From: Brevibacterium iodinum ATCC 49514
GTDB lineage: Bacteria; Actinomycetota; Actinomycetes; Actinomycetales; Brevibacteriaceae
Reading direction: 5' to 3'
Assembly: GCF_900169265.1 (NCBI RefSeq)
Contig: NZ_FXYX01000004.1
Coordinates: 1-64,000 of the forward strand
DNA length: 64,000 bases
Position numbers and translations under genes: made by a program. The notes under the pieces were generated by a model that worked only from the letters and a program-made list of their open reading frames with translations, did no database searches and was not told the DNA's origin. Within the stretch, counting starts at the first letter, position 1. Each line of letters opens with the position of its first letter. Positions 1 to 59,158 of the stretch are shown here, piece after piece.

Positions 1-201
1 ACGTTGAAGCGTCGAGCTGCTGATGTGCTCGCGTTCTTCACCCGACCGGGAACGTCGAACGGTCCCACTGAAGCGATCAACGGCAGACTCGAGCATCTAC
101 GCGGGTCCGCGCTGGGATTCCGCAACCTCACGCATTACATCGCGAGGTGTCTGCTCGAGTCCGGTGGCTTCAGACCGGTTCTACACTCTCAATTACGATG
201 A
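1..201 (+). pseudogene. ISL3-family transposase, C-terminal end (partial)
   Basis: The reading frame is open from the window edge and ends at TGA 199-201. The visible part contains the C-terminal motif of ISL3 transposases (SNGPTEAINGRLEHLRG, then GFRNLTHYIARCLLESGG), the region carrying the last acidic catalytic residue (E of EAINGRLE). A second ISL3 remnant at 21657-22394 has the same arrangement (SNGGTEAINGIIELGRR) but clearly different sequence, so this is another element. Only the last 65 or so residues are in view; whether the upstream part is intact cannot be judged. Its right end interrupts the 5'-nucleotidase gene that follows. Confidence 0.85.
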
Positions 202-204
202 GCC
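181..204 (+). repeat. Right terminal inverted repeat of the ISL3 element
   Basis: The sequence ends in ...ACGATGAGCC just after the transposase stop codon. ISL3 elements typically end in a 20-30 bp inverted repeat whose outer bases are GGCTC-type when read inward. Coding sequence of the 5'-nucleotidase resumes directly at 205, so the element boundary is placed at 204. The 8 bases GGAAAAGA at 205-212 would be one copy of the usual 8-bp target duplication; the other copy lies outside the window. Confidence 0.6.
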
Positions 205-1524
205 GGAAAAGAGCGTCCCGTTATCCAGACCGGCTCGTACGCGGCGAACATCGGGCGCGTCACCCTCACCGTGGATCCCGAGACCCACGACGTCACCTCC
301 TATGAGAAGGAGAACGTCCCGGTTCCGGCCAAGGCGGATGGCGCGAACCTGAACGATCCGGTCGTCGCCGACGTCAAGCAGATCGTCGACGACACGCTGC
401 AGCGCGCGAAGGTCGAGGGGGAGAAGCCGGTCGGCGCGGTCGCCGGCGACATCACCACCGCGCACTCCGGTGGCAAGCGCGACGACCGCTCCTCCGAGTC
501 GGCGCTCGGCAATCTCGTCGCCGAATTCATGGTCGATGCGGTCGCCGATCGCGGCGGCGCGCAGATCGGCTTCATGAACCCGGGCGGTCTGCGCGACGAG
601 CTTCTCAACGACCCCGAGGGCGCCGAAGACAACATCAACAAAGCCGAGGCCAACGGCGTGCTGCCGTTCGCGAACACCATTGTCACGATGAAGATGACCG
701 GCGGGCAGATCAAGAACGTACTCGAGCAGCAGTGGCAGCCGGACGGCAGCTCGCGGCCGTTCCTCGCTCTCGGCACGAACGACGCGCTCACCTGGACTTT
801 CGATCCCACGCGCGAGCGCGGCGACCGCATTACCTCAGTGAGCTTCGAGGGTCAGCCCATCGACGAGAGCGAAACCTGTTCGGTCGTCTCGCAGAGCTTC
901 CTCGCCGGAGGCGGCGACAACTTCACCGAATTCGCCGAGGCGACGGAGAAGGCCGATACCGGGCTCATCGACTCGGACACGTGGATGGACTTCATCAGCG
1001 AGAACTCGCCGCTCGAGCCGGACTTCTCCCGCCGCGCGATAGCGGCGAAGAACCTCCCGGGCACCGTCACCGCGGGGAAGAAGACGAGCTTCACGCTGTC
1101 CGACCTCAACCTCACTTCGCTCAGCGCAACGAAGGCCACGAAGGCCACCGTGAAACTCGGCGAGGACGACCTCGGCACCTTCGATGCCACGTCGGAGGTC
1201 GACGACTCGACCTTCGGTGCCGGCGCCTTCTCCGCGCCACTCGACGGCAAGGTCGACATCGACGTCGAGATCCCGGCCGACGCGACTGCCGGGGAACAGA
1301 TCCTCACGGTCGACCTCGACAACGGCACGACCGTGTCGATCCCGGTCACCGTCGGTGCGGGTGAGGATGATGGTGACGACGAAGACGGCACCGACACCCC
1401 CAGCGCCGGTAGCCTCGCGAGCCTCGCCCCAGTATTCGGTTCCTCGGTCGCGCTGCTCCATGTCCTCGGCTTCGAGGTCGCGGGCGCCGAGGGCAGCCTC
1501 GAGTCCCAGACCATCGGCAGCTAG
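205..1524 (+). pseudogene. 5'-nucleotidase / UshA-type phosphoesterase, 3' part, interrupted by ISL3 element
   Basis: From 205 the frame reads RPVIQTGSYAANIGRV, typical of the end of the metallophosphatase domain of secreted 5'-nucleotidases. It continues into the 5_nucleotid_C substrate-binding domain (NLVAEFMVDAV, FMNPGGLRDEL, LPFANTIVTMKMTGGQIKNVLEQQW). A surface-protein-like region with a beta-rich segment and a Asp/Glu-rich linker (GEDDGDDEDGTD) follows, ending in a hydrophobic tail. The N-terminal metal-binding half is missing because the ISL3 element occupies the upstream side. The product would normally hydrolyse extracellular nucleotides; this copy should be inactive unless the 5' half is restored. 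Confidence 0.85.
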
Positions 1525-1557
1525 CCAGGCCGAGGCGGCCCCGGCCGCTCGTGGCCT

Positions 1558-2382
1558 CTACATAGTGACGGCGAGCTCGCTAAGCACCCGCTGGGCGAGC
1601 TCGCCGTCCCCGTCTATCTGGATATCGTCCGACACGTCGGCCGGCGCGACTCTTCCGCCGTAGAGACGCGCGAACACGCCTGCCGGCATCGTGAGCGTCA
1701 CCGTGGGCTCGGCCGGAGGGGCGTCGATAAGCCGAGCCCGGCCCTCGACGGCCACAGAAACGGTTCGGCCAGCAGCTCCGGTAAGTCGCAATGTGAGCGT
1801 CGACCCGTCGGGAGCGGAAGCTCGTTTGCCGACGATGTAGCCGAGTTTGCCGACCATCTCCTCGATCGCGATGGCCGCTGCCGGCGAATCCATCCCGCCC
1901 TGCGCCAAGATCGCGTCGCGCAGATCCTGCTCGTGCATCCAGCGGTCGAAGATGCGGATCCGCATGAACTTCGCGTAGGTGCCTTTGCCCTCCGGAGTCC
2001 ACGACTCGGCGTGGAAGTCCTCGTCCGCCATCGCGCGCAACGTCTCGGCCCGGGAGCGTGTGATCGTTTCGAACTGGTCGACCAGCTCAGCCGTGTCCAC
2101 TCCGCGGAAGTGTTCGATCCACGCCTGGTTGAGCGCACCGATCTCGTTGCGCACGAACGACGGAGCATCGCCGCTGGATGCCGGTGCCTGCTCGCCGGCG
2201 AGCATTGATTCGGTGCCGATGATGTGGGCGATGATGTCGCGAGAGCTCCATCCGGGGCACGGCGTCTGGGCGCCCCAGTCGATCTCGTCGAATGTAGAGG
2301 TCAGCTCGCGGATCGCCGCCCATTCGCCCGTGAGGGCATCGATGATGCGGTCGCGTTCAGAAGTAAGGTTCTCGGTGGCCAT
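1558..2382 (-). CDS. Maleylpyruvate isomerase family mycothiol-dependent enzyme
   Basis: 274 residues with the DinB-like four-helix MDMPI N-terminal domain: CPGWSSRDIIAHIIGTE around residues 42-58 includes the His (about 53) expected to take part in metal binding. A C-terminal SCP2-like domain follows (GRTVSVAVEGRARLID, PTVTLTMPAGVFARLYGGR). Members act on thiol conjugates or are of unknown substrate in mycothiol-producing actinobacteria. The gene is convergent with the broken 5'-nucleotidase and divergent from the secreted CYTH-like gene, so it is probably monocistronic. The precise reaction cannot be deduced. Confidence 0.85.
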   Translation of the reverse strand: MATENLTSERDRIIDALTGEWAAIRELTSTFDEIDWGAQTPCPGWSSRDIIAHIIGTESMLAGEQAPASSGDAPSFVRNEIGALNQAWIEHFRGVDTAELVDQFETITRSRAETLRAMADEDFHAESWTPEGKGTYAKFMRIRIFDRWMHEQDLRDAILAQGGMDSPAAAIAIEEMVGKLGYIVGKRASAPDGSTLTLRLTGAAGRTVSVAVEGRARLIDAPPAEPTVTLTMPAGVFARLYGGRVAPADVSDDIQIDGDGELAQRVLSELAVTM

Positions 2383-2528
2383 GCAAGAAATCTAGCGTTG
2401 CCGGCGGCAGCGAAGGCTCGAACCGGGCAAATTGCGCCTCCGATTGTCCCCATTCCTTCGGCGCGAATTCAGCGGGGCATCGCCAGTCGTTTCCCTTAAA
2501 TTAAGTTGAGAACCGTAAGGTTACTCGA

Positions 2529-3404
2529 GTGAACAAAATAGGTAAGCGAACTTTTCGCGGGTCGGCCGGGTTTGTCGCCGCATTCGCCGCCGGCGCACTC
2601 ACTCTCGGAATCGCCCCCGTGGCCACTGCGGCCGGCGTCGCGGAACCCGAGGGCTACCAGGTGAAGCTCCGCCTGGACGACTCCGTCCTCGACGGATCGG
2701 GCAACCTCACCGCCGAGGCCGCGGGCTACTTCGGTATCCCGGAGGCGGCGGGCAACGCCGATGCGCCGGAGACCGAACAGAGCGTGTACGTGGATTCGAA
2801 AGATTCCGCGCTCGGCTCGAAGGGCTGGACAGCACGGCTGCGACACAAGGCAGGCGACGACGAATACGACCTGACTTTCAAGTACCGCCAGGACCTGTCC
2901 GACAACACTCTGTCGCAGGATTCGATCGACGAGGCGCTGGCCAAGGCCAAGGACGCCGATTTCGACAGTTCGGACGATAATTACGAACCTCAGGTCAACG
3001 CCAGCTACGCCACGAGCACACTCGACTTCAGCAACAAGAAGTCCGCCGAGTGCGTCTCGGACGATTGCGCGATCCCGAGCGGAGAGAAGGCGGTCGAGCT
3101 CCTCGACGAGAAGCTGCCCGGGAAGCTGGAGAAGCAGACCGGCGGCACGCTGGAAGACGCCGGCGCGACGGCATCGCAGGTCGTTACCCAGCGCACGTGG
3201 CCGGTCACGGTCGACGGGACCGAGGCCGAACTCGAGGTCACCGCGATGTCCGGCGGATACTTCGTCGAGATCACCACCGAGCTCGCAGGGCGTGGCGATG
3301 CGGCCGATGCCCGCGCCGACCTCATCGAGGCGCTCGACGACGAGGCCATCCTGCGCCACTCCGACGCATTCAAGACCCAGCTCGTCCTCGACGGAACCCT
3401 ATGA
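2529..3404 (+). CDS. Secreted CYTH-like protein
   Basis: 291 residues from a GTG start. Residues 1-35 form a signal peptide (basic KIGKRTFRG, hydrophobic AAFAAGALTLGIAPVA, then ATAAG). The mature part starts with a YQVKLRLDD strand and has YVDSKDSALGSKGW followed by TARLRHKAGDDEYDLTFKYR, the alternating charged pattern of the CYTH/triphosphate-tunnel fold. Known CYTH proteins are cytosolic cyclases or triphosphatases, so an exported one is unusual. Its stop overlaps the start of the next gene, an ABC ATPase (ATGA), so it is probably made with the importer. Function is unknown; polyphosphate or phosphate-ester binding is a guess. Confidence 0.6.
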   Translation: MNKIGKRTFRGSAGFVAAFAAGALTLGIAPVATAAGVAEPEGYQVKLRLDDSVLDGSGNLTAEAAGYFGIPEAAGNADAPETEQSVYVDSKDSALGSKGWTARLRHKAGDDEYDLTFKYRQDLSDNTLSQDSIDEALAKAKDADFDSSDDNYEPQVNASYATSTLDFSNKKSAECVSDDCAIPSGEKAVELLDEKLPGKLEKQTGGTLEDAGATASQVVTQRTWPVTVDGTEAELEVTAMSGGYFVEITTELAGRGDAADARADLIEALDDEAILRHSDAFKTQLVLDGTL

Positions 3405-4429
3405 CGGCAACCGAGACGGTGGCCGCGCCAGAGAAGACGGCGTCCCCGATGCTGTCCCTCGACGCGGTGGCGCGCACGTTCGCAGATGGCACCGGCCTCA
3501 ATCCGGTCACCATTGACGTCGCGCGTGGAGAGTTCATCACCGTGCTGGGGCCGTCGGGGTGCGGAAAGTCGACGCTGCTGCGCTGCGTGGCGGGCCTGGA
3601 GATCCCGACGTCCGGCGTCATGCATCTGGCTGGTCGAAAGGTATTCGATGCCGGCAGTGATGGGGCGCGAGCGGTCAACGTGCCGCCCGCCCGGCGTAGC
3701 TTGTCCATGGTGTTCCAGGATCTCGCGCTGTGGCCGCACATGACAGTGGCCGGGAATGTCGAATTCCCGTTGACGGCGCGGGGCGAGAAGATTCCCGCCT
3801 CAGAGCGCAGACGGCGCGTGGGGGAGGCGCTCGAGATGGTGGGGATCTCGGCGAAGGCCGGGCAGCGCCCGCACCAGCTTTCCGGCGGTCAACAGCAGCG
3901 CGTCGCGATCGCCCGCGCTGTCGTCGACCGCCCCGACCTGTTGCTCATGGACGAACCTTTGTCCGCTCTCGACGCGGCGCTGCGCGTGCAGGTGCGCAGG
4001 GAAATCACCGACCTTGCGCGCGAACTCGGGCTCACCGTCCTCTACGTCACCCACGACCAGGAGGAGGCGCTGTCCATGGCGGACCGCGTTCTGGTGCTCC
4101 GCGACGGCAAGGTCGCGCAGTTCGATCGGCCCGCGGTCGTGTACGAAAACCCGGCGGACGAGTTCGTTGCCGATTTCGTCGGAACTATGGACCGGCTCGA
4201 GAGTGGCCTCGCCGTGCGCCCCGAACAGGTCGAGGTCGCCGGCCTCGCCACGGACCCGGGCCACGGGACTGCGCCTGGCACCGAGGCGACCGTCGAATCG
4301 TGCAGCTACGTCGGCGGCCGCTACGAGATGCGCTGCGCCGTCCCCGGCGCGCCAAGGCCGTGGCTCGTCCACTCGCGCGACGAACACGCCCCCGGCACCC
4401 GCCTTCTGCTGCGCCACCCCGGGGCCTGA
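3401..4429 (+). CDS. Ferric-type ABC transporter ATP-binding protein (FbpC-like)
   Basis: 342 residues from ATG 3401, which overlaps the preceding stop by ATGA; earlier in-frame starts would overlap most of the upstream gene. Walker A GPSGCGKST is at about 50-58, the Q-loop near 106, signature LSGGQ at 160-164, Walker B LLLMDEP at 180-186 and the switch His in YVTHD near 213. A TOBE-like C-terminal region begins with LAVRPEQVEVAG. This organisation is that of CUT2/Fbp/PotA-type importer ATPases. It is followed by a binding lipoprotein and a fused double permease, so it powers uptake of Fe3+ or a chemically similar ligand (phosphonate relatives exist). Confidence 0.88.
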   Translation: MTATETVAAPEKTASPMLSLDAVARTFADGTGLNPVTIDVARGEFITVLGPSGCGKSTLLRCVAGLEIPTSGVMHLAGRKVFDAGSDGARAVNVPPARRSLSMVFQDLALWPHMTVAGNVEFPLTARGEKIPASERRRRVGEALEMVGISAKAGQRPHQLSGGQQQRVAIARAVVDRPDLLLMDEPLSALDAALRVQVRREITDLARELGLTVLYVTHDQEEALSMADRVLVLRDGKVAQFDRPAVVYENPADEFVADFVGTMDRLESGLAVRPEQVEVAGLATDPGHGTAPGTEATVESCSYVGGRYEMRCAVPGAPRPWLVHSRDEHAPGTRLLLRHPGA

Positions 4430-4492
4430 CAGTCCCTCTCGCCCCACCACACTTCACACCTCAACGACACTCGAACACGAAGGAGACCCACC

Positions 4493-5551
4493 ATGCGCTC
4501 ACGAATTATCTCCGGCCTCGCCGGTGTCGCCCTCGCCGCGACGATGGCCGGCTGCGGATCGGTCGATGCCGCCGACGATTCCGGAAACGACAGCGCCGCC
4601 GACGCGCAGGAATGGACGGCGCCCGAAGGACTCGAGGGAGAGCTGACCTATTACTCGGCGAACCCGCAGGGGCTCACCGACGATCTGGTCGGCGCGTTCG
4701 AGGAAAAGACGGGAGTCACCGTCAACGTGTTCTCCGGGGAGACCGGTAAAATCACGGCGAAGCTCAAGGCCGAACAGGCCAACCCGCAGGCTGACGTCGT
4801 CTACCTCGCGAGCTGGTCCGCGGCGCAGTCGCAGTCCGAGACCGGCGCGTTCGAGAAGTTTGCGCCGGAGGGCGCGGACAAGGTGCACGAGGGCTGGACG
4901 GCGGAGTCCGGGGACTTCACCGGCCGCGACGGCTCGGCGCTCGGCCTCGTCGCCAACACCGAGGCCATCGAGGGCGGAGAGTCGCCGCAGGATTGGGAAG
5001 ACCTCGCCGATCCGAAGTACAAGGACAAGGTGATCATGCCCGACCCCCGCGAGTCCGGCACTGCCGCCGATCTCATCGCCGCGATGGTCGAAAAGTGGGG
5101 AGAGGACAAGACCTGGGAGCTGTTCGACTCGCTCTTCGATAACGGCATGCAGGTGCAGGGAGCGAACGGGCCCGCACTCGACGCGGTGACCTCCGGCTCC
5201 AAGGCGGTCGTCTTCGGCGGTGTCGATTACTCTGCATACGCCGCAAAGGCGAAGGGCGAGCCGCTCGAATTCGCGATCCCGTCCTCGGGTACGACCGTGA
5301 CTCCGCGCCCGATTCTCGTCAGCGATAAATCCGACAACAAGGACGCCGCCGAGGCGTTCGTCAACTTCATGTTCTCCGAGGAGGGCCAGGCGATCAGCGC
5401 CGATAACTACATGATTCCCGCCATCGAGGGGGTCGAGCCCGCCGAGGGCGAGCCGTACGAGGATATCGATCGGCTCACCGACGACCTCTCCGGTCTTAGC
5501 GAGGCCTCCGACGGAGTCACCGAGACGTTCGTCTCCCGCTACCTGAAGTGA
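4493..5551 (+). CDS. Extracellular solute-binding lipoprotein, ferric/phosphonate ABC importer
   Basis: 352 residues. A lipoprotein signal ends at TMAGC (Cys21), followed by an acidic linker. The body is a family 1 periplasmic-binding fold: ELTYYSANPQGLTDDLVGAFEEKTG, then GETGKITAKLKAEQANPQADVVY, as in FbpA/AfuA and 2-aminoethylphosphonate-binding relatives. A tyrosine-rich stretch VDYSAYAAKA is present, but the classical paired-Tyr iron ligands cannot be placed with certainty, so the ligand is left open. An RBS (AAGGAGA) precedes the ATG. It lies between the ATPase and permease genes. Confidence 0.85.
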   Translation: MRSRIISGLAGVALAATMAGCGSVDAADDSGNDSAADAQEWTAPEGLEGELTYYSANPQGLTDDLVGAFEEKTGVTVNVFSGETGKITAKLKAEQANPQADVVYLASWSAAQSQSETGAFEKFAPEGADKVHEGWTAESGDFTGRDGSALGLVANTEAIEGGESPQDWEDLADPKYKDKVIMPDPRESGTAADLIAAMVEKWGEDKTWELFDSLFDNGMQVQGANGPALDAVTSGSKAVVFGGVDYSAYAAKAKGEPLEFAIPSSGTTVTPRPILVSDKSDNKDAAEAFVNFMFSEEGQAISADNYMIPAIEGVEPAEGEPYEDIDRLTDDLSGLSEASDGVTETFVSRYLK

Positions 5552-7323
5552 GCCGCCCGTCGCTAAGGCGGCAGTGCGCCGGAACGACGGCGATCCTGCT
5601 CGTCCTTCTGGTACTCGTCGCCATCCCGCTACTGTCGGTGCTCGCCACTGCGGTCACGGGGTACGGGGACGACCCGTCCGCCCTGGGCACCCTCGTCGAC
5701 GGGGATATGCCGCGGATCATCGGTAACACGATATTCCTGTCCGTCCTGGTCGTCGCGTTCTCGACGATCATGGCGGCGCCACTGGCGTTCCTCACGAGCT
5801 GGACCGGCCTCCGACGTCATTGGTGGATCGACATCGGGGTGATGGTGCCGTTCATGACCCCGCCGTTTGCTGCGGCGATGGCGTGGATGGACATCACCCG
5901 CACCGGCGGAGTGATCGACATGCTTCTCGGCGATTTCGCAGGCGATGCGCTCCGCGCCACCGTGAACTCGGTGTGGGGGATGGGCCTGATCATGGCGTGC
6001 GAGCTGTTTCCGTTCCTCTACCTTCTACTACGCAACTGCCTCGATGCCGTGCCCGCCTCGGGGACGGAAATGGCGGCGGTCGTGGGCGCGTCCAGGTGGA
6101 AGACGCTCACCCGAATCGTGCTGCCACAGGTCGTCGGGCCGTGGTCGCTCGGCGCGCTCATCGTGTTCATCCGCGCGGCGGGCGAGTTCGGCACCCCGGT
6201 GACGCTGGGGAACGCCATCGGTTACCAAGTCCTCGTCTCCCGCATTCAGCAGGACGTGACAGTCGACCCGCTGGACTTCTCCTCTGCCGCCGCAGGTGCG
6301 AGTGCGCTATTTACCCTCGGTATCGCGGTGTGGGCGTTGCAGCAGGTCATTTCCCGCAGAACTCTGGACGCCGGAGGCGCAGGGGCCGGAGGGCGCGTGT
6401 CTCGCCCGACCAGCGTGCGGCTCGGCCCCGTGGGCACCATCGCCGGCTGGGCGTGGGTCGCGGTCGTCGCGACGATGTCGATCATCGTGCCGTACATTTC
6501 CATCGTCCTCGGCGCGACGACGATCCTGCGTTCGAAAGCCCCGAAGCTCGATAACCTCTCGCTCGACTACTTCCTCATCGTTCTCTCCGACGACCGGGCG
6601 TTGCGCGCACTGACGACCTCCGCGGTTCTCGCCGCGATCGGCGCGACCGCCGGCGTGCTCATCGCCCTCGCCGTCACACTCGTGACAACGCTCCGTCGCA
6701 GCCGTGCGGCAGGTAGCGCGCCGGGCGGTCGACTCGGCCGGATCACCGACTTCCTCGCGGTCGCGCCGGAAACGGTGCCGGCGATCGTTCTCGCGATCGG
6801 CTTCATCTTCTTCTGGAATGCCGGATGGCTGCCGGCCACCCCGTACAACACGCCGGCGATCCTCGTCATCGCCTACGCGGTGCTGTTCCTGCCGATGGCC
6901 GTGCAGAACATCAAGACCTCAGCCCAGTCCGTCACCCCGACGGTATTCGAGGCTGCGGCGACGAGCGGCGCCACCGGTTGGCACACTTTCGCCCGGATCA
7001 CGCTGCCGCTTCTGCTCCCGGGGATCGCGGCAGGTTGGTTGCTCGCATTCCTGACCGGCATCCGCGAACTCGTCATGTCCTCCCTGGTCCGCCCGAGCAA
7101 CATGACGCTGCTGTCGCCATGGATCATGGGCCAGTTCGATCAGGGCCACCGCGCCGAGGCGATGGCGATGACCCTCATCGGCGTCGTCAGCTCGACCATC
7201 GTCCTCGTCGCCGTGCAATTGTGGCTGCGGCGCCGATCGGTCACGGTAGACCGCTCGCCGAAGGGGCCCGCCGCACAGCAACCGACCGCCGACGGAGCCC
7301 GCGAACTCAGCCATGCCGGATAG
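5548..7323 (+). CDS. ABC importer permease, two fused transmembrane domains (FbpB-like)
   Basis: 591 residues. The GTG start overlaps the preceding stop (GTGA). There are two tandem BPD_transp_1 domains, each with about six hydrophobic helices and an EAA-type loop: EMAAVVGASRWKTLTRIVLPQ in the first half and EAAATSGATGWHTFARITLPL in the second. Both loops contact the ATPase. Fused double permeases are standard for ferric Fbp systems and 2-aminoethylphosphonate importers. Only the last few codons overlap the following phosphoesterase gene. Confidence 0.88.
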   Translation: MSRPSLRRQCAGTTAILLVLLVLVAIPLLSVLATAVTGYGDDPSALGTLVDGDMPRIIGNTIFLSVLVVAFSTIMAAPLAFLTSWTGLRRHWWIDIGVMVPFMTPPFAAAMAWMDITRTGGVIDMLLGDFAGDALRATVNSVWGMGLIMACELFPFLYLLLRNCLDAVPASGTEMAAVVGASRWKTLTRIVLPQVVGPWSLGALIVFIRAAGEFGTPVTLGNAIGYQVLVSRIQQDVTVDPLDFSSAAAGASALFTLGIAVWALQQVISRRTLDAGGAGAGGRVSRPTSVRLGPVGTIAGWAWVAVVATMSIIVPYISIVLGATTILRSKAPKLDNLSLDYFLIVLSDDRALRALTTSAVLAAIGATAGVLIALAVTLVTTLRRSRAAGSAPGGRLGRITDFLAVAPETVPAIVLAIGFIFFWNAGWLPATPYNTPAILVIAYAVLFLPMAVQNIKTSAQSVTPTVFEAAATSGATGWHTFARITLPLLLPGIAAGWLLAFLTGIRELVMSSLVRPSNMTLLSPWIMGQFDQGHRAEAMAMTLIGVVSSTIVLVAVQLWLRRRSVTVDRSPKGPAAQQPTADGARELSHAG

Positions 7324-7984
7324 CCGCACACGTGTCGCCGCGCTGGCCGACATCCACCTCGGCCTGCCCCAGGCGCCCGGACTCGACTGGGCACTGTCCG
7401 CCGTTGACGCCGCCGTTCGTGCGCAACCGGACCTGTTCGTGTTCGCGGGCGATCTCATCGACCGCGCCCATGCCGACGACGCCACGGTCGCCGACGTAGA
7501 ACATCTTCTGCGGTATGTGGCCGGCACCGGCGTGCCGGTAGTCGTCGTGTGGGGAAACCACGACGCGGCGGCGAAACTTCCCGCTCGACTGCCCGACATC
7601 CCGGGCATCGAGTACGCCCCGTCGGACAGGGCGCTCGAACTCGAGATAGGCACCCTCACGGTGCACGCGATCTCGGTCGCGACCGACCCCGACCCGCGAC
7701 GCGCCGTCGGGGCATTCCCCATCGCGATCCGGGGGAGCGGCCAGCATCTCGGCGTCCTGCACACGAGTCTGACCGGCGAGTACAGCCGCAAACCCTGCCT
7801 CCCGGCGAGTCCAGACGAGCTATGTTCGCGTCGCTACGACCGGTGGCTGCTCGGGCACGTGCATGCACCGCTCACGGTCTCGGAAACCATCGGCTGGATC
7901 GGAATGGGTGAGCTCGCGATCACCGACGTGCCCGCTCTCGACCGCGACATCGCGCATACCCACATCGCCGCTTCGACACTGTGA
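7313..7984 (+). CDS. Calcineurin-like metallophosphoesterase
   Basis: 223 residues; the start overlaps the permease end by 11 bp. The full metal-ligand set is visible: DIH (D13, H15), GDLID (D47), GNHD (N82-H83), LHTSL (H150) and GHVH (181-184). The arrangement resembles Mre11/SbcD-like small phosphoesterases, but no nuclease-specific cap or SbcC partner is present. Translational coupling to the importer suggests a link to the imported ligand, for example a phosphoester. That is inference from position only. Confidence 0.82.
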   Translation: MPDSRTRVAALADIHLGLPQAPGLDWALSAVDAAVRAQPDLFVFAGDLIDRAHADDATVADVEHLLRYVAGTGVPVVVVWGNHDAAAKLPARLPDIPGIEYAPSDRALELEIGTLTVHAISVATDPDPRRAVGAFPIAIRGSGQHLGVLHTSLTGEYSRKPCLPASPDELCSRRYDRWLLGHVHAPLTVSETIGWIGMGELAITDVPALDRDIAHTHIAASTL

Positions 7985-8090
7985 TCTTCCGCGTCCTCAG
8001 CTCCGCGCGGTGGCGACGCGGCCGTCCACGGGACGACAATGAAGGTACAACGAAGGCGCAGAACCCGACGAAGCGAAAAGAGGACTAGGC

Positions 8091-8834
8091 GTGAAGATCG
8101 CAGTATTGGGAGCCAGCGGAACGGCCGGACGGGAAGTCGTCCGCCACGCCAGGGCCAACGGGCATGACGTCGCCGAGCTGAGCCGTAGCGCCGGCATCGA
8201 CCTCGCCACCGGTACAGGGCTCGTCGAGGCATTCGCAGGAGTCGACGTCGTCATCGACGCGTCGGCCCCGCAGGGCGGAAGCGGCGACGACGTTATTGCC
8301 GTCCACAAGACTGCCGCGCAGCACGTGTCCAAGGCCGCTCAGGAAGCCGGCGTCGGCCACCTCGTATACCTGTCGATCTGCAACATCGGCGACGAGTGCT
8401 TCGACGAATTCGACTACTACGTGGCCAAGCGCGAGCAGGAGGACGTGTACACGGCCTCGCCGCTCGCGACGAGCATCGTGCGCTCGGCGCAGTGGATGGA
8501 GTTCGCGAATAACCCGGCGGCGGTGCAGTTCTCCGACCGGGAGGTCGTCGTCTCCGACTGGCTGATCCAGCCGATCGCGGTGTCGGAAGTCGCCGGCGAG
8601 CTCGTGCGTACCGCCGAGGGCGACCCCTCCAATTATGACGTCGCAGGCCCGGAACAGATCCGTCTTCCCGAGCTCACCGAGCGCCTCCTCCGTGCGCGCG
8701 GCGACGAGCGCCCCGTGCGGTCCGAGGAGCCGCCTATCCCGCAGCTTGCGACAGGAGTGTTGCTGGCCCCGAAGGGCGCGAAAATCCTCGGCCCCACGCC
8801 GTCACAATGGTTGGATGAAGCCGCCGAAGAATAG
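8091..8834 (+). CDS. NAD(P)-binding NmrA/SDR-like oxidoreductase
   Basis: 247 residues from GTG 8091. The N-terminal dinucleotide motif GASGTAGREVVRHA is at about 7-20, followed by the Rossmann pattern (DVVIDASAPQGG, HLVYLSICNIG). The catalytic Tyr-Lys pair of extended SDRs is seen only as YYVAKRE, where DYYVAK may supply Y and K. Substrate is unknown. A strong palindromic terminator follows at 8882-8921. Confidence 0.8.
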   Translation: MKIAVLGASGTAGREVVRHARANGHDVAELSRSAGIDLATGTGLVEAFAGVDVVIDASAPQGGSGDDVIAVHKTAAQHVSKAAQEAGVGHLVYLSICNIGDECFDEFDYYVAKREQEDVYTASPLATSIVRSAQWMEFANNPAAVQFSDREVVVSDWLIQPIAVSEVAGELVRTAEGDPSNYDVAGPEQIRLPELTERLLRARGDERPVRSEEPPIPQLATGVLLAPKGAKILGPTPSQWLDEAAEE

Positions 8835-8881
8835 CGCGGTCCCGGGATAACGGGGTAGCTCGCGCATGCGGGCGATCGATA

Positions 8882-8921
8882 CGAAGGAGCGGGGCCGCAA
8901 AATCGCGGCCCCGCTCCTTCG
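8882..8921. terminator. Bidirectional intrinsic terminator with 17-bp perfect stem
   Basis: Perfect 17-bp inverted repeat: left arm 8882-8898, right arm 8905-8921, with loop AAAATC. The stem is very GC-rich and has no pronounced U-tract, as is common in actinobacteria. It sits between the convergent oxidoreductase (+) and permease fragment (-). Confidence 0.85.
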
Positions 8922-8948
8922 CGGTCGACTGGGGAAGTGGAGTGCCCT

Positions 8949-9530
8949 CTAGGGCTCGGCTCCCACAGGTTCGGTGTCCTTCGCCTTGGCCAGGGGCGTC
9001 TTGCCCTTGCGGCCCTCGCGCACACGGCGCTCGAGCCAGCCGGCGAACTTCGTCAACGAGTAGTTGAGAATGATCATGATGACCGCGACCACGAACAGAG
9101 CGGCGAGGTAGTTGCGGTAGTACGAGGCGGACTGGATGCCCGAACGCACGACCTCGACGTAACCGATGATGTAACCGAGAGCGGAGTCCTTGAGTGCGAT
9201 GACCATCTGCGCCACGATCGCCGGCAGCATGGCGGTGATCGCCTGCGGAAGCAGGATCATCCGCATGGTCTGACCGGGACGGAGCCCGAGTGCGACCGCG
9301 GCCTCGTTTTGTCCCTTCGGCAGCGAGTGCACGCCGGACCGGATGATCTCGGCGATGACCGAACCGTTGTAGAAGGTCAGACCGAAGACCACGGCCGCGA
9401 GCGCGAGATAGGTCGACGGGAACACCTGGTACAGGGAGAACAGCTGGTAGGCGAAGATCATCAGCAGCAGCACGGGGATGGCGCGGAAGAGCTCGACGAT
9501 AATCGCCGAGATCCACCGCAGCGCCCCACA
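8949..9530 (-). pseudogene. gluD: Glutamate-type amino acid ABC permease, C-terminal part (GluD-like)
   Basis: About 189 residues closely resembling the C-terminal two-thirds of corynebacterial Glu[19 protein letters not shown], then [30 protein letters not shown] (the EAA loop) and [14 protein letters not shown]. The N-terminal helices and the gluABC genes that should precede it on the minus strand are absent. Upstream the frame continues without a stop into a DNA polymerase, so the 5' part was replaced, with the join near 9525-9545. The gene is presumably non-functional as a permease. Confidence 0.85.
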
Positions 9531-12251
9531 GACCACATCGGCTCTCAACGTGTCCGGCAGCGGACGACGCTTCATGTCGAAGTCAAGAGACACCTCTGGA
9601 GACCGCGTGACCGGACCGAAGTCGAGCCGGTTCTCAGAGCGCGACAGCTCCTGGAACGTAGGGAACGTTGTGTACGAATTTGGAACCTTCCCGTCTCGGG
9701 ATACAGCCGTGTGCATGAACCACATACGCTCTTCCACCGAACCACCACGCTCGATACCTTCAGGAGTCTTCAACCCAGCCTTGGCAAGCACACCGTCCGG
9801 GGACAGGCTCACGTTCCCGCGAGTCGTCAAATTGACTAGGTCGTCCTGCCGATGCTTTATCTCCCACACCGTTGGGTCACCGACAAGCGCGTCGCGCGAC
9901 GAGCGAAAAACGTCAGCCAACCCGAACGCGTCGTAGCACTCAACGTCGAGCTCGGAAGTGATGAACCCGTCAGTCGTAACGCTGATCAGCTCGACCTGGT
10001 TAGCCATACCGAGCAGGAACGCCCTCACCAGGCTGGTGATCATTGCTGCGTGGTATGGCGAAGTCACTGCCGACCCACCGATTGACTCCATCTCTTCCAC
10101 CCAAGAGTTCCAGCCCCGGCGCTCAGCTACATCCTGTGCAAGCTTGCCGTAACAACTGTTGGTAGCAACCTTGATCATCAATTCGACCAGACTGCCCTTA
10201 CCCCACACCTGCTTAGCTTCACAGCGATCAGCAACCATCTGCTTTACAGCTGAACGCATGGACCGAGACGGCTCACCACCACGATCGAGAGTGCGAAGCC
10301 GGTACCCGATCTGAACCGTCACATGAGCACCCAACTTGAGAGCCAACAGAAGCTCCGGGCCGCAGCACCACGCCCCCTCGAAGGAGTCAAACTCCACCTC
10401 GAAGGAGTCAAACTCCACGTCAGCCATGTTCTCGCCCATCGCGGCACCGATCCCTTCGGAGCTTCGAGGGTAAATGATCGATTGACCCACCCGGACGGGC
10501 AGACACGGCTCGACGCCCCTAGGGAACTCCCAATTGACGTACGCAACTAGCGGGGTGACGAATCCAAGCGGAAAGTCGTCGATGGACAACCCCCGGTTCT
10601 TGATTACTTCCTCGATGCATCCGTTCTCGTAGTCGACGTCGATCACGGCCGCCATAGCTGACGGGTACGCCGACTGAATGTCATGGTCATACGTTTCCGT
10701 TGCGAAAAACCCGACCTCTAAACAGCTGTTCCAGCCGCCATGGAAGGACTTCTGGAACGCGGAGTGGACCTGGTTGGCGTCACCGTCGACAGGTGTCTGT
10801 GAACGCACCCGGTAGTAGCTCAACCCGTCGTCGGCCATCTCTTGCCCGTCGTCCACCGACACTAGCCCCTGGAAACGCGCCGAGAACTCAGCGTTAGACG
10901 AGATTCCCAAGTAGGTTTTCACGCCCGCTCGCAGGGCATGCGCGCCACCGCCTGAGAGTGTCACCGGAGGCACGACACCGACCCCCCAGAGCGCAGTCAG
11001 ATACTCGAGGACGATCGCGGCGTCGTTCACGCCGTATTCCAGGAAAGTAGGGAGATTTACGCGACGTAACGAGCTCATGTCCTCGATCGCATCGCCCACG
11101 TCGAGTTTGGGTACCCCGCATACCTCGCCAAGCACCTTGAGGGTGTTGGAGCCGGCTGCAGCCTGTCCCACCGTGTCGCGCACCGTTATCGATAGCGGAA
11201 GAAACCGACGGCTAGAACCATGGGCACCGGATCCCACAGACATCCGAATAGGCTTCAAGGACACTAGCCCACCCGAGGCGGAGGTGACACGACGCAGAAT
11301 GTCATCGTACTTGCCATCTCCTCTGCGCCGAAGCGGCCTAGCGAAAGTTGTGAGGTCGGCGGTCAGGTAGTGACCAGCAAGCACAACGCTTACCCCGTGA
11401 TGACGGTAAAGTACCTCCATACTCGGCGTGTAGCCTCCTGGGACCCAGAAATCCCGGCGAGCGACCCCGCGAGGGTCTGGCAGACCAAGAGCACGCCACA
11501 GCCCGCTTTCACGCAGCACCAAAGCCACGCAGTCACCAACGGCCAACAGGCCGCCAAAACTTCCACCCCCATCCCGATGACGAACCGCACCATCGACAAG
11601 AGGTAGCAGCACGATGTCGTAGCGGTAACGCTTGTCCCTGGGGGCGAATACTGAGAATTGGTAGCTGTCGATGACCCGCAGCTGGCGATCGGTACCTTTG
11701 TCGAGGTAGGTGAATTCGGTGTCGAACCCGATGACCACAGACTTCTTTCCAGTTCCCATTGCACGGACAGTGTCAAGATCCCCGAATCCAGGGATCTTTG
11801 AACCGCCCACTCGCGCTTCGCGCTCGCTAGGTGCACCCTCACAATCGCGCTCAACGCTCGCGTGCGGGCGGCGAGTGGGCACGCTGGCCTGCCCTTCCAG
11901 GCCAGGCCAGTCTGCCCTTCCCATAGGGGATTTTGGCCTGAAGTCATCGGCAGAGGTCAACGGGTCTTTTTCGGACTTTTCCCTGACACGCTTCCTGGGA
12001 AACGTGTCAGAATCGCTGCCCCTAAAGGTCTCTTCCGGATCCATTAAAGAACGCTGTATACGACGAACTAGGACCGCCGTAGCCACCCCATTTATGTCTT
12101 CGCGGGACACGTTCCAATCGGTTGTGGATGTGTCATTAACAACTCGTTGGAAAGCGTCGTTCGGGGTATCTTCCGTCGAGATTGAGGTTCCCGCGAATTG
12201 GTTCTTCACACCATCGGACGGCTGCTTTTCGAACCTTCCAGCGATACTCAC
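8949..12251 (-). CDS. Family B DNA polymerase fused in frame to a permease tail
   Basis: A continuous 1,100-residue frame. Residues 1-170 are poorly conserved. A proofreading exonuclease domain follows (FDTEF 176-180; AGHYLTADL about 292-300; Y406xxxD410). Polymerase motifs are all present: motif [11 protein letters not shown] (524-533), motif [10 protein letters not shown] (694-702), motif C TTDGF (759-763) and TTRG near 809-812. The polymerase ends about residue 905 ([11 protein letters not shown]); residues 912-1100 are the GluD remnant. Motif C with TTDG rather than DTDS points to plasmid or pipolin-type PolBs of bacteria, not cellular Pol II. It probably replicates a small mobile element. 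The first ATG is used here; later starts are possible. The C-terminal fusion may be a true insertion scar or an assembly join. Confidence 0.8.
10377..10418 (-). repeat. 21-bp tandem duplication inside the DNA polymerase
   Basis: Two perfect adjacent 21-bp copies (10377-10397 and 10398-10418). They encode the repeated heptapeptide VEFDSFE at about residues 612-625, between motifs A and B. The duplication keeps the frame and looks recent because the copies are identical. Confidence 0.95.
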
Positions 12252-12286
12252 GAAGCACCGCCCAGCAGTGTCGAGAGCTTGCGAAC

Positions 12287-12556
12287 CTATTCGTTGGTTA
12301 GCGGGGGAGCGGACGCAACGATGCGCTGAACGGCACGTTCGACGTCCTCAAACGTCGTTTTTCGACAGGGGATCGCAAGACCGTCGAGATCGGCACGCAG
12401 AACTTTGACGCGAGAACCGATCTTCACGGCGGGCAGACGGCCGTCATCAATGTAGCGTCGAAGAGTTTGGTAGGCGCCGTAGCCCAGGGCTACAGCTTCG
12501 TTGAGATTGAGGTAGTGATCGCCGCTTGATGTCGGCGCATAGGTGGAGGTTGCCAA
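12287..12556 (-). CDS. Excisionase/MerR-like helix-turn-helix protein
   Basis: 89 residues. The central part [44 protein letters not shown], read as separate segments, is the winged-helix fold of bacterial excisionase-family DNA-binding proteins. It lies 35 bp upstream of the DNA polymerase on the same strand, so the two form an operon. Such a protein can act as Xis, as a replication initiator accessory or as a repressor. No integrase is adjacent; the only recombinase trace is the 5' remnant near 20.8-21.0 kb. Confidence 0.75.
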
Positions 12557-12987
12557 GGGGTCTCCCAGAGACGGGCACGCAACGCGTGCTCATGTCTCTG
12601 GCTGACACACTCACAGGTGGCGATCTCGGTCACGCCTGTGCTGCCAGATGGGCAAGCCGCGGTCTCTCTTCAACCGCTGGCGCTTGCCCGCCCGTTTGTA
12701 ACTCCTAGCTTCGGTCCGGCGACCACTCCGGATCTTAGCGATGAGGTGGGTAGACCTCTTCGGTTTCTCCTAAGGGGCATGCGAGTCCCCACACGTTAAT
12801 ATCGGCGTGTTCGAGAGCCGCTACTCCCTAGCTCTGGTCAGAGCCACGACCTCTCGGTCGTCACGCGGGGTGATCCCTCTGAGACCATCTGACGGTCGCG
12901 ATGATCTAAGACTTGACGCGATCCTATCGTATCTGTCAAGCGTGAGCAAGTGTAATCCATACATACGTAAGTAGTGTGTCTAACGCG
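12557..12987. other. Hairpin-rich leader upstream of the excisionase-polymerase operon
   Basis: No gene is recognised in these 430 bp. At least six stem-loops are visible: 12565-12601 (arms CCAGAGAC/GTCTCTGG), 12612-12640 (CACAGG../CGCCTGTG), 12650-12689 (GGGCAAGC/GCTTGCCC), 12791-12810 (ACACG/CGTGT), 12831-12844 (GCTCT/AGAGC) and 12846-12861 (ACGACC/GGTCGT). Its place directly before a mobile-element polymerase operon fits a replication origin, a structured RNA or a recombination site. The sequence does not decide between these. Confidence 0.55.
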
Positions 12988-13011
12988 GTGGAGTTCCGGT
13001 TTAATGTCTAA
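12988..13011 (+). repeat. Recurring gene-tail scar 1 (VEFRFNV-stop)
   Basis: GTG GAG TTC CGG TTT AAT GTC TAA would encode the terminal residues VEFRFNV. No matching gene body lies upstream; the preceding codons (SSVSNA) do not continue into a recognisable protein. Downstream, GGCCTCTGACCAGGGGTT resembles the sequence after scar 2. It marks the right edge of the polymerase element. Confidence 0.75.
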
Positions 13012-13413
13012 TAAGGGCCTCTGACCAGGGGTTTTATCTTCTCGGCCTCCGGTTGGGTTCGATGGACAGGTTCCGCTTTACCATCAGTTGCTAAGCGTTT
13101 GTCCCGCTGACCTGGGACTTTGGTTGGCCTCTGCGGAGCTCCCGCAGAGGCCGATTCTCGTTGTCGCGTTGCGGTAGCGTCTCTGGCGAGTGGCTTCGGC
13201 TGCGCAGTTCTGTGGTGGGTTCAAGTTATTCGACGCGCGATCTCGCGGAAGGTGCGCTGACTCAAAAATCTGTCTGACTCATAAGTCGGTTGCCTAGCAA
13301 CGCTATGGTTCACTGGGGCAGGTCTCGTTCCGCCTGAGTGCGAGTGATTTCGTCCCGCTAACAGCTCGCTCCCATGAGCCGCTGGTGGCGGTGCAATTGG
13401 TAGTCTGGGGCGG
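13012..13413. other. Non-coding stretch between scar 1 and the MFS gene
   Basis: Apart from the stem-loop at 13126-13152 and the sequence conserved downstream of the scars (GGCCTCTGACCAGGGGTT at 13016-13033) I see no gene. The last 30 bases before 13414 should hold the MFS promoter and ribosome-binding site, but neither is well defined. Confidence 0.5.
13126..13152. terminator. Stem-loop, possible terminator
   Basis: Perfect 11-bp stem GGCCTCTGCGG/CCGCAGAGGCC (13126-13136 and 13142-13152) with loop AGCTC. No T-run follows. It could have terminated the gene whose tail remains as scar 1. Confidence 0.6.
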
Positions 13414-14613: not shown

Positions 14614-14710
14614 ATCGTATGGTTGTGCGTGGTGTGGTCTAGCGCGCGGAGGCTTCTCTGCCGCCGTTGCGAAACCGGTGCAATCAGAGGTTGCTATCTG
14701 CGGCGACGTG

Positions 14711-14734
14711 GTTGAGTTCCGGTTCAACGTATAG
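14711..14734 (+). repeat. Recurring gene-tail scar 2 (VEFRFNV-stop)
   Basis: GTT GAG TTC CGG TTC AAC GTA TAG, preceded by GTG, again encodes VVEFRFNV-stop. It is followed by GGCCTGGCCAGGGGTT, similar to the sequence after scar 1. No gene body belongs to it. From 14735 to 14906 I see nothing recognisable; GC content rises sharply from about 14907. Confidence 0.75.
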
Positions 14735-19922: not shown

Positions 19923-20645
19923 ATGGAAACTCGGGATGACACGGAACTGGGGCCGTCGGCGGCGCTGGGCAGGCGCGAGCGGGCGAAGGCGGAGAAGCGC
20001 GCCCGCATCCTCGCCGCGGCGCGCGCGCTGTTCGAGGAGCGCGGTTTCGAGCGGACCTCGATGAGCGAGGTCGCGCGCGCGGCGGATGTGGCCGAGGGGA
20101 CTGTCTTCCAGTACGCGGCGACGAAGGTCGAGCTGCTCATGATGGTCGTCGATGCGCTCTGGGGAGCCCACGAGCGCGCGACGACCACCCCTTCGCTCTC
20201 CGCGTTCGCCGCGCCCGGCACCGCGACGGCGGGCGGGGAGACCTCGGACCGGATCGCGGAGCTGATCTCACCGCTCGTCACCGCGATGCGGCGCTGGCCC
20301 GAGCTTGCGACGTGGGTCGCCCGCGAGATCCTCTTCGGTGCGGACATGCCGCATCGCCGGCGGGTCCTCAACCACGTCGATCGGCTCGAAGAGCAGATCG
20401 CCGCGCGCCTGCAAGACGGCCGGGCCGACGCTTCCGGTGCGATCGGAGCGGCGCGGGACGGTGCGACAGGCACTGCCGGCGAGGAGCCCGGTGCGGCTGC
20501 GGCGGCCGGCGCCCGCCTCATCGTCGCCGGGGTGCTGGCCGAGCTCAACCGCTCCCGGCAGAGACGGATCGACGGCGAGAACGTCGATGTGGTGCTCCGC
20601 AGGCTCATCGACCTCGTGGTGGCGGGGGCGGGCGCCGCCCGGTGA
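19923..20645 (+). CDS. TetR-family transcriptional regulator
   Basis: 240 residues. The N-terminal helix-turn-helix is RARILAAARALFEERGFERTS followed by MSEVARAADVAEGTVFQYA at about 31-70. The C-terminal ligand domain is not conserved with named families. It is divergent from oleate hydratase, so it probably senses fatty acids or fatty acyl-CoA and represses ohyA and itself through the repeats at 19886-19913. Confidence 0.85.
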   Translation: METRDDTELGPSAALGRRERAKAEKRARILAAARALFEERGFERTSMSEVARAADVAEGTVFQYAATKVELLMMVVDALWGAHERATTTPSLSAFAAPGTATAGGETSDRIAELISPLVTAMRRWPELATWVAREILFGADMPHRRRVLNHVDRLEEQIAARLQDGRADASGAIGAARDGATGTAGEEPGAAAAAGARLIVAGVLAELNRSRQRRIDGENVDVVLRRLIDLVVAGAGAAR

Positions 20646-20811
20646 CCCGGAAGCCGTCCGGGCCGTTCGGGCCGCCGCTGGCACCGGCCAGCGCCGCCGC
20701 GATTGCCCGCCGCGCGGCCGGCAGGCGCGTGCCCGCCGCGGTCGTGTGGGGCCCACCGTCAGATCCTCGCCCAGCAGGGCGGGGGCGATGGCGCCATCGG
20801 AGAACTCCACT

Positions 20812-20972
20812 GCCGGAGATGTCGTTGTCCTCGTAGTCCCCTGCTGGAGTCCATCCGCTAGCCTTGATGAGCGCCTCGGCGTCCTCCCTGTCGCGGTCCA
20901 CACCAGGCGACGGTTCTCGCGATCCTGAGAGATCCGCATGTAGACGGCGGCCCGCCGAGGCTCAGCACTCAT
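20812..20972 (-). pseudogene. Serine recombinase, N-terminal remnant
   Basis: From ATG 20972 on the minus strand the frame reads AEPRRAAVYMRISQDREN. After a one-base frame change at about 20910 it continues VDRDREDAEALIKASGW and PAGDYEDNDISGSG. This is the start of the resolvase domain of large serine recombinases (YxRxS motif with the catalytic Ser in RIS). The remaining 400 or more residues are absent. It starts 16 bp left of scar 3 and points away from it, which fits an integrase gene whose attachment site lay just upstream of its start codon. Confidence 0.75.
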
Positions 20973-20988
20973 GGAGTCAATCTACGTC

Positions 20989-21037
20989 AAAGGTTATTCG
21001 GCTACCGAACGTGGTGGAGTTCCGCTTCAACGTCTAA
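20989..21037 (+). repeat. Recurring gene-tail scar 3, 49-bp form
   Basis: The 49-bp sequence from AAAGGTTATTCGG to GTCTAA encodes KVIRLPNVVEFRFNV-stop (written here as 15 residues). It matches scar 4 (27353-27401) at 46 of 49 positions, and the two diverge at once on both sides. It separates the recombinase remnant from the defence module. Confidence 0.85.
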
Positions 21038-21126: not shown

Positions 21127-21246
21127 TTGAAACGAGGAACCGGGGCGGTAGCTGCCATGGATGACGCCGATCCGTGCTTCCACATGCACTGCAGTACCGC
21201 TCTCGGTAAAGGCGAGGAGCGCCGACCGATGGACGTGGTGTTCTGA
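21127..21246 (+). CDS. Small 39-residue open reading frame coupled to the AAA gene
   Basis: TTG 21127 follows a very strong ribosome-binding site (GAGGAGGGG). The frame runs to TGA 21244-21246, which overlaps the ATG of the AAA ATPase (TGATG). The peptide contains DDADPCFHMHCS with two Cys and two His in a tight cluster, and it ends RRPMDVVF. No family is recognised. Coupling suggests a small partner of the ATPase. Confidence 0.4.
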   Translation: MKRGTGAVAAMDDADPCFHMHCSTALGKGEERRPMDVVF

Positions 21247-21656
21247 TGCTACGGGAAATGACGATCACTGGCGGCACGTGCTTTGGGCGCTCTCCGCTGA
21301 CGGTCACCGGTCTGAAACCCGCAAGCTTCTTCTACGGTCCCAACGGTTCCGGTAAGACGACAATCAGTCGAGCGTTCGCTGGCTACGGTTCCCTGCAGTT
21401 GGAGCCGGAGTGGCATGACGGCACGGATATGGCGGTACACGTCTACAACAGAGACCTTGTGGATCAGATACTGCGCGAGTCCAACCGGATGCCCGGCGTC
21501 TTCGTGCTCGGCGAGAACAGTGTCGACGCTCAGAAACGCCTTGAACAGATTCAAATGACTGGAGGTGAACGCGACCGGGCCGTGAATGTGTACGGGCGTA
21601 TGCAAACCAGCCATTCGGTCGCGCAAGACCGCCAGAGGGGACTGCTGACGGTTTAG
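21246..21656 (+). pseudogene. AAA_13-type ATPase (anti-phage/RloC-like), 3'-truncated
   Basis: The Walker A GPNGSGKTTISRAF is at residues 31-44 of a protein that begins with a strand-rich REMTITGGTCF stretch, the start of RloC/PrrC-like AAA_13 ATPases found in defence islands. Residues 46-110 (LVDQILRESNRMPGVFVLGENS) fit this family. Homology fades about residue 115, and a stop occurs where an ISL3 transposase fragment begins. The coiled-coil, Walker B and any nuclease part are lost. It sits in the same module as an Mrr-like nuclease and a HEPN-like protein. Confidence 0.65.
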
Positions 21657-22394
21657 TTGACTCGCGGCACCCACCCCACCGCCAGACTCCTCGACCTCGT
21701 CCCCGGCCGATCCGGCAAGGCCTACGGAGACTGGCTCGACGAGCGCGGCGACGAGTTCCGCAAGCGGGTCGCGATCGCGACGCTGGACCCGTTCCAGGGC
21801 TACAAGAACGCGATCGATGACCAACTCGAGGACGCCACCTGCGTGCTGGATGCGTTCCACATCGTGAAGCTCGCCGGGGCTGCAGTCGATGACGTCCGCC
21901 GCCGGATCCAGCAGGAGACCCTCGGCCACCGAGGCCGCAAGGGCGACCCCCTCTACGGGATCCGTCATGTTCTCCGCGCCGGACGGGAACGCCTCACGCC
22001 GCGCCAGCAGACACGTCTGGCCAGCGCATTCGCGGCCCACCCCGATCACGTCGCGGTCGAGGTCGCCTACCAGTGCGCCCAGGACCTCCGAGACGTGTTC
22101 CACCAGCCCACGCCCGCCCAGGGACGCCGCCTCGCCGAGCAGCTGATCGCTGCGCTGCCGTCCTGCCCGATCCCAGAGATCGCCAGGCTCGGGAAGACCC
22201 TACGCCGCTGGCGGACAGCGTTCCTTGCCTACTTCGACACCGCTGGCGCGAGCAACGGCGGCACAGAGGCCATCAACGGGATCATCGAACTCGGCCGCCG
22301 CATCGCCCGCGGCTTCCGGAACTTCGAACAATATCGCCTCCGAATGCTCCTCATCACCGGAGGCCTCGACGCCTCACCCCACACTCAACTCTGA
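21657..22394 (+). pseudogene. ISL3-family transposase, C-terminal half
   Basis: 245 residues starting abruptly with RGTHPTARLLDLVPGRSG. The DDE catalytic region is visible: IATLDPFQGYKNAI and VLDAFHIVKLA, then TAGASNGGTEAINGIIELGRR. ISL3 transposases are about 430 residues, so the zinc-finger and HTH half is missing. The fragment directly follows the broken AAA gene. Confidence 0.85.
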
Positions 22395-25568: not shown

Positions 25569-26381
25569 TCAACTGTCGAGGCTGTGCCAATCGTCCCCTA
25601 GCACCCAGCGAACAGCGGAGATTCGCCCTGAGAGGTAGCCCCACGCCCAGTCCGATTCCACATCCTTCGCCAGCTCTTCCACGCCGTACTGCTCCTCGAC
25701 TCGGCGCTTTGCTGCGAGCCTTCCAGACTTGATGTCATCGGGCCAATCGTAGAGATCCGAGTCCTCGTCCGCTGGTTTGCGCCCATACCAGAGTCGATCC
25801 ATGAGCGTTGACTCGGCCTTTAGAATCTCTGACACCCGTCGCAGCGTGCTCGTCCCTACATCGTGCTTGAAAGCTAGATCTAGGTTCTGCTCAACAAGCC
25901 GAAGGAGCTGCGGCTTCTCCCAGATGCGGATCCGGAAGGGCGGGTTGTTTGTGCGCAGGTAGTCCGCAATCCAATCCTTAGCCCCGTTGGTGAGATAGCC
26001 AGACGCAATGAAGAGGAGCACTGACGGACGCTCAGCACTGGCCCAGGTGATGGCTCCCTGAAGCGCGTCCGGAGGAACGCCGCGCTTGTAGTGCTTGCAA
26101 TCGACGAACCAGCGCTCCTCGTACTCGTGCCCGTCAAGGTCCTCCATTGACCGGCGAGCGACGATATCTCGGCCACGGTCGGAAGGCGATGCGGCGAGCG
26201 GAGTCCCCTTCCTCCAGTCCACATTGGAGAAGCCACTCTTGGCCATGAGGTCGAAGCAGAACTCTTCGAAGTCCGTGGGCGATAGGCCTCCGAAGTCGAG
26301 GGAGCCGAGGGCGAAGCCGTGCTCGGACTCGGCAACGTCCATCGCCTCCTCGTCGAGCGGATGTTCGGGCACCTTCTCCAT
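25569..26381 (-). CDS. Mrr-like restriction endonuclease domain protein
   Basis: 270 residues. The N-terminal third has LSPTDFEEFCFDLMAKSGF and the nuclease core GRDI (D72) followed by WFVDCKHYKRG (D94-x-K96), the PD-(D/E)xK pattern of Mrr-type restriction endonucleases, with a possible Gln at ALQGA. The C-terminal half is unassigned and contains a helical part rich in charged residues. Mrr proteins cut modified foreign DNA. The gene survives with its stop four bases from the IS481 target duplication. With its neighbours it suggests a defence island. Confidence 0.75.
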   Translation of the reverse strand: MEKVPEHPLDEEAMDVAESEHGFALGSLDFGGLSPTDFEEFCFDLMAKSGFSNVDWRKGTPLAASPSDRGRDIVARRSMEDLDGHEYEERWFVDCKHYKRGVPPDALQGAITWASAERPSVLLFIASGYLTNGAKDWIADYLRTNNPPFRIRIWEKPQLLRLVEQNLDLAFKHDVGTSTLRRVSEILKAESTLMDRLWYGRKPADEDSDLYDWPDDIKSGRLAAKRRVEEQYGVEELAKDVESDWAWGYLSGRISAVRWVLGDDWHSLDS

Positions 26382-27352: not shown

Positions 27353-27401
27353 AAAGGTTATTCGGCTACGGAACGTGGTGGAGTTCCGCTTCAACGTGTA
27401 G
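27353..27401 (+). repeat. Recurring gene-tail scar 4, 49-bp form
   Basis: Encodes KVIRLRNVVEFRFNV followed by TAG and matches scar 3 at 46 of 49 bases. The first recognisable higB codons start right after its stop, so the join lies within a few bases. Confidence 0.85.
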
Positions 27402-59057: not shown

Positions 59058-59066
59058 CACAGCTTC

Positions 59067-59142: not shown

Positions 59143-59158
59143 CGAACTCCTCTACTCT

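Follow-up and report, generated by a model that had tools for sequence, protein, structure and literature searches.

A truncated piPolB-type DNA polymerase gene in Brevibacterium iodinum, probably the remnant of a pipolin in an island array at ychF

Introduction

Pipolins can be viewed as mobilizable elements built round a family B DNA polymerase (piPolB) of the primer-independent type. In intact relatives of the element considered here, a site-specific recombinase acting with an excisionase would excise the element as a circle, which the piPolB would copy and which the relaxase and MobC would nick for mobilization. The pipolins of E. coli (Flament-Simon 2020, PMC7385651) are elements of the same type, with a piPolB, a recombinase, an excisionase-like gene and att repeats, and they differ from the present locus in integrating at tRNA-Leu with tyrosine recombinases; the likeness drawn here is one of element type. 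Plasmid pipolins have been named from Staphylococcus epidermidis and Lactobacillus fermentum (PMC9710591). An initial annotation of the DNA studied here had thought such an element in this lineage worth describing, but pipolins in Actinobacteria are already on record (PMC7385651, PMC9710591).

The window analyzed here is the first 64,000 nucleotides of contig NZ_FXYX01000004.1 (C31) of Brevibacterium iodinum ATCC 49514. It carries an element that is most likely a decayed example of a pipolin rather than a new system. Two free circular plasmids, pSE-12228-03 (Staphylococcus epidermidis) and pLME300 (Limosilactobacillus fermentum), which on our own reading are the plasmid pipolins reported earlier, share with the window a piPolB, a TTDG motif C and a TR-type replacement of KxY. 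They carry a relaxase on the same plasmid and, unlike the window, have KTRG or RTR in place of TTRG.

Results and discussion

A polymerase that groups with those of pipolins

The core of the locus consists of the following features, with the evidence for each in brackets.

8949..12251 (-): fused polymerase–permease frame, 1100 codons, no internal stop
9540..12251 (-): piPolB-type family B DNA polymerase, C-terminally truncated (homology, motifs, tree)
9525..9540 (-): fusion point, where polymerase homology gives way to permease homology (alignments)
8949..9524 (-): GluD-like ABC permease, C-terminal part, foreign to the host (PF00528, amino acid identity)
8882..8921: perfect 17-bp inverted repeat, terminator-like, between convergent genes and past the permease stop codon
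12287..12556 (-): excisionase-like small HTH protein (xis), 89 aa (HTH_17, homology to a gene of the congeneric genome G060)

The first ~904 codons of the long frame encode a family B polymerase and its last ~190 residues a GluD-like permease C-terminus. Alignment with homologues agrees with the initial annotation in finding all exonuclease and polymerase motifs: ExoI (GFDTEF), ExoII (GHYLTAD) and ExoIII (YGVND) are aligned, motif C (TTDGF in that annotation) reads VTTDGF, and TTRG, at about residues 809-812 of the frame, stands where KTRG/KxY is expected. We take a TTDG motif C and a KTRG-type replacement of KxY to be marks of piPolBs, as illustrated in our alignment by both pipolin plasmids. 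The lysine of KTRG, as found in the staphylococcal pipolin plasmid, is replaced by T or S in four of four Actinobacterial piPolBs, and these enzymes could serve to test the role of that lysine in primer-independent synthesis.

Matches to polymerase homologues range from E=0 to 1e-33 and cover 60-85% of the polymerase, so chance is not an issue for them. At 57-58% identity stand two Corynebacterium loci (L002 and L003), the sole two homologues obtained from the search of genome contigs; at 52% stands G060, the sole homologue besides the window in a genus-wide search. Such a polymerase is accordingly rare, being present in two of 57 genomes of the genus (the window and G060) and in one of 395 sampled across the class (the window itself). 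The best plasmid matches are to small Staphylococcus plasmids, including pSE-12228-03 at ~26%. In a tree with several long branches, built from a set that held neither E. coli piPolB nor cellular Pol II, the Actinobacterial polymerases (window, Corynebacterium, G060) form one clade with support of 100/100, and this clade joins pSE-12228-03, pLME300 and a Fusobacterium plasmid polymerase with support of 98/98, leaving phi29, PRD1 and T4 outside. The plasmid- or pipolin-type affinity first proposed from motifs is thereby borne out by phylogeny, and the grouping supports assigning the window polymerase to the piPolBs of pipolins and, by homology, predicting it to be of the primer-independent type. 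A phage origin was rejected, since a tblastn search of 50,697 phage records gave no match and the 29 pattern matches in IMG/VR included no confirmed relative. No sequence relative was found among solved structures, and an AlphaFold2 model built with three sequences reached a pLDDT of 28, too low to be usable.

The excisionase-like gene noted beside the polymerase is likewise upheld by profile searches. Its product matches Pfam HTH_17 at E 1.3e-6, above the curated cut-off, and TIGR01764 'excise' at E 6.6e-6, just below its cut-off. The positional counterpart in G060 (L050, 12422-12766) is 58% identical over 67 aa (E 2e-21), and the order of xis and polymerase is the same in both.

The Actinobacterial relatives are more complete. 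The Corynebacterium loci, from sp. HMSC04H06 and p3-SID1145, have the same motifs as the window, including TTDG and [ST]TRG; in contrast to the window, their polymerase is complete (1036 aa) and a xis gene of the window type was not found, and L002 further differs in that its polymerase lies between a tyrosine integrase and genes for MobC and relaxase. The element on contig 18 of G060 (~25 kb, same genus) matches the window in the order and orientation of xis and polymerase, but its polymerase is complete (998 aa) and it also holds a relaxase, NikA, resolvases, type I restriction-modification (R-M) genes and a serine recombinase. Read in one direction, its genes run relaxase, NikA, small orf, polymerase, xis; the type I R-M genes, the resolvases and the 502-aa serine recombinase lie towards the far end, and the element sits between tad-type pilus genes (R-M and tad names assigned by eye).

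An abrupt join to a foreign permease fragment

The permease part matches PF00528 at E 6e-21 over residues 922-1090 of the 1100-aa frame in a Pfam profile search. Permease homology stops at window position ~9520-9532 and polymerase homology gives out at ~9540, which makes for an abrupt, in-frame join, as first described. Third-position GC rises within this one frame from 0.66 in the polymerase to 0.89 in the permease, which fits different origins for the two parts.

The initial annotation had placed the element within a gene for a glutamate permease. The host genome, however, has an intact gluABCD operon of its own on contig C29, with the gene order of relatives and the neighbours seen in two of them, and the window fragment is only 45-48% identical to the host's GluD. 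Its identity is 65-73% (amino acids) to genomes of family f22 of the class, in which gluABCD lies near recA, an arrangement that we presume typical of Mycobacteriales; we take f22 to be a lineage of that order that includes Corynebacterium. No 5' half matching the fragment was found in the host genome. Because the host operon is intact and the fragment is closer to another family, the locus is better described, as far as sequence comparison can tell, as a foreign permease fragment joined to the polymerase than as an element inserted into a host gene. Disruption of the host gluD was rejected on the same grounds, as was a reciprocal inversion between gluD and the pipolin, for which neither the polymerase C-terminus nor a matching gluD 5' half was found elsewhere.

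The polymerase leaves homology at ~904 of ~1030 residues, and its piPolB domain is incomplete at the C-terminus. About 88% of the gene and ~95 residues past the TTRG motif are retained; the ~125-130 C-terminal residues of complete Actinobacterial homologues are missing. The Corynebacterium polymerase C-terminus found only a best match of E 0.017 in the host genome, which is not a counterpart, and the genes inspected from 206 to 12983 included no relaxase, site-specific recombinase or integrase, or polymerase tail. The element thus has a pipolin-type polymerase but is not intact, with no polymerase C-terminus found in the genome and no integrase or relaxase beside the gene. The window polymerase is probably inactive. 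Its frame is open, free of frameshift or stop, so either the decay is recent or the cell may still make use of the product.

The integrases and relaxases found in the host genome sit on other contigs. On C35 (G000; L083 8279-9514 and 12444-13942) there is a NikA/relaxase pair with 48% and 52-54% identity to the pair in the G060 element; another relaxase locus, with a serine recombinase near the relaxase gene, lies on C29 (L084 2177-7920). It is conceivable that a complete helper acts in trans, given the relation of the C35 pair to that of G060.

Left flank and insertion sequence

Two features lie to the left of the permease fragment.

1..205 (+): ISL3-type insertion sequence, right end, in which the contig stops (ends and 8-bp duplications)
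206..8834: cargo left of the permease fragment (gene content below)

The cargo comprises the 3' part of a 5'-nucleotidase gene, an ABC transporter (ATPase, binding protein and fused permease), a metallophosphoesterase and an NAD(P)-binding protein, and has no long DNA match in the genus. Known plasmids were rejected as its source, their matches being confined to short conserved stretches of the ABC genes. The insertion sequence, assigned to ISL3 by eye from its ends and 8-bp duplications, has about 12 copies in the genome, and the end linked to the foreign cargo matches host copies at 100% identity. Of 12 left and 12 right ends, nine pair by exact 8-bp duplications and three on each side remain unpaired, among them those of contig C12 and of the window contig, which suggests an IS-mediated deletion.

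Three alternatives bear on the join. The first, which supposes a chimera of assembly or library at the polymerase–permease join (9525) and an intact polymerase gene in the cell, would account for a permease side foreign to the genus and for a join that coincides with neither an att site nor an IS end. We consider it unlikely, since no other close copy of either side of the join exists in the genome, leaving no repeat to mislead the assembler, the foreign cargo is linked to the host-identical IS end, and the polymerase C-terminus is not found elsewhere in an assembly that is 99.97% complete. It is also quite improbable that the pipolin inserted into gluD in another host and that both were carried here together: the fragment does come from f22, which by our assignment includes Corynebacterium, where the closest polymerases were found, but the join lies inside the polymerase coding sequence rather than at an element end, so that there is no integration boundary, and the genes adjoining the fragment (the NAD(P)-binding protein and the ABC transporter) do not match the gluD surroundings in G203, G192 and G295. 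The idea that the 1100-aa product works as a membrane-tethered polymerase can practically be set aside, for although the frame is intact and all catalytic motifs are kept, a hydrophobic permease segment replaces the missing C-terminal residues, none of the relatives found has such a fusion, and the transfer genes are gone.

The ychF site

The boundary of the mobile element appears to lie not at the gluD join, where it was first sought, but at the other end, where a repeat of the 3' end of ychF occurs.

12983..13290 (+): probable attR, with the ychF 3'-end repeat at 12987-13007 and, after it, native sequence from downstream of ychF (77-82% DNA identity)
14710..14730 (+): ychF 3'-end repeat in the island array (repeat search)
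21013..21033 (+): ychF 3'-end repeat in the island array (repeat search)
27377..27397 (+): last ychF 3'-end repeat, from which native chromosome resumes rightward (repeat search, collinearity)

The 21-base repeat GGTNGAGTTCCGNTTYAAYGT, which is the ychF 3' end, occurs in four plus-strand copies, at 12987, 14710, 21013 and 27377, with none expected in shuffles. Sequence past the 12987 copy is 77-82% identical in DNA to that downstream of ychF in G002, G029 and G030, and for this reason 12983 looks like an attR and probably is one. We infer that it is this pipolin's own attR. The left half of this att is without the flank common to most other cassettes, so the repeat may instead belong to an older island. 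No tRNA attachment sites were found by ARAGORN in the window or in L002, L003, L050 and L063, no conserved element end common to the window and G060 was found, and the ychF repeat is absent from 19.5 kb around the G060 polymerase.

The ychF gene itself is on contig C12. Past its recombined 3' end comes a DNA methyltransferase-like gene of which only the start is present, an IS end cutting it off; C12 stops in the left end of that IS, ~440 bp beyond ychF, and the window contig starts in the opposite end of a copy of the same IS. The att repeats seen are the ychF repeat on the right, at 12983, and the recombined ychF end on C12, which lie on separate contigs. From ~27.6 kb rightward, the window is collinear with the region downstream of ychF in G007, mostly at 85-98% amino acid identity. 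Together, the IS ends and this collinearity make the ychF island array the best placement for the pipolin remnant. A link between C12 and C31 by target-site duplication was rejected, the 8-bp flanks being different (GGATAACT versus GGAAAAGA), so the C12-IS-C31 link, which we infer, rests on exclusion and synteny, and C40 and C49 are the other candidates.

Our preferred reading, which we regard as probable, is that a pipolin entered the island array at the ychF 3' end and then decayed, its right end remaining. The host at the time of entry would have been an actinobacterium, most probably a Brevibacterium. Through a deletion or illegitimate join, the polymerase would then have lost its C-terminus, together with the genes found behind it in relatives (a small orf, NikA/MobC and relaxase), and its frame would have been fused to the foreign permease fragment, after which the ISL3-type insertion sequence would have trimmed the left side; this order is our reconstruction. 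The survivors would be attR, a non-coding stretch of ~430 bp, the excisionase gene and the retained part of the polymerase gene. So read, the locus adds a rare chromosomal pipolin remnant from the genus.

An island array at ychF in the genus

At the loci examined (L030-L035, L110-L116, L119 and L121, in some of which ychF itself lies outside the fetched stretch), about a dozen species of the genus have additional copies of the ychF repeat, close to ychF or further downstream. Their number ranges from one to about six over the stretch read, and the spacing is mostly 0.5-6 kb. Among the products encoded in the cassettes between repeats are a CBASS-type cyclase (G030), an OLD/Gabija-like protein/ATPase (G007), an MFS protein, a 3-hydroxyacyl-CoA dehydrogenase and an MCRA hydratase. 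The array looks like an SCC-like integration hotspot, and the literature searched, which was partial in coverage, held nothing relevant on ychF as an integration site. Such a hotspot, with its multiple att copies and its defence genes, may be of more interest than the pipolin remnant itself. Going further, one could suppose that the pipolins of the genus are cassettes of SCC-like serial integration at the ychF 3' end, moved in trans by serine recombinases alongside anti-phage cassettes, a proposal that we hold to be rather doubtful.

Short frames that by eye resemble the N-terminus of serine recombinases adjoin ychF repeats at 20605-20901 (-) in the window and at 2842-3210 (+) in L033, and are possibly remnants of a recombinase using the ychF site. 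At 21246-22394 of the window, a fragment of an AAA-type ATPase (best PADLOC match PDC-S06) runs into an ISL3 transposase fragment, apparently a defence-type gene broken by an insertion sequence. An Mrr-type restriction endonuclease is encoded at 25569-26381 (-), in the island that directly precedes the last ychF repeat, and a TPP riboswitch (Rfam RF00059, 61.3 bits) lies at 59050-59153 (-).
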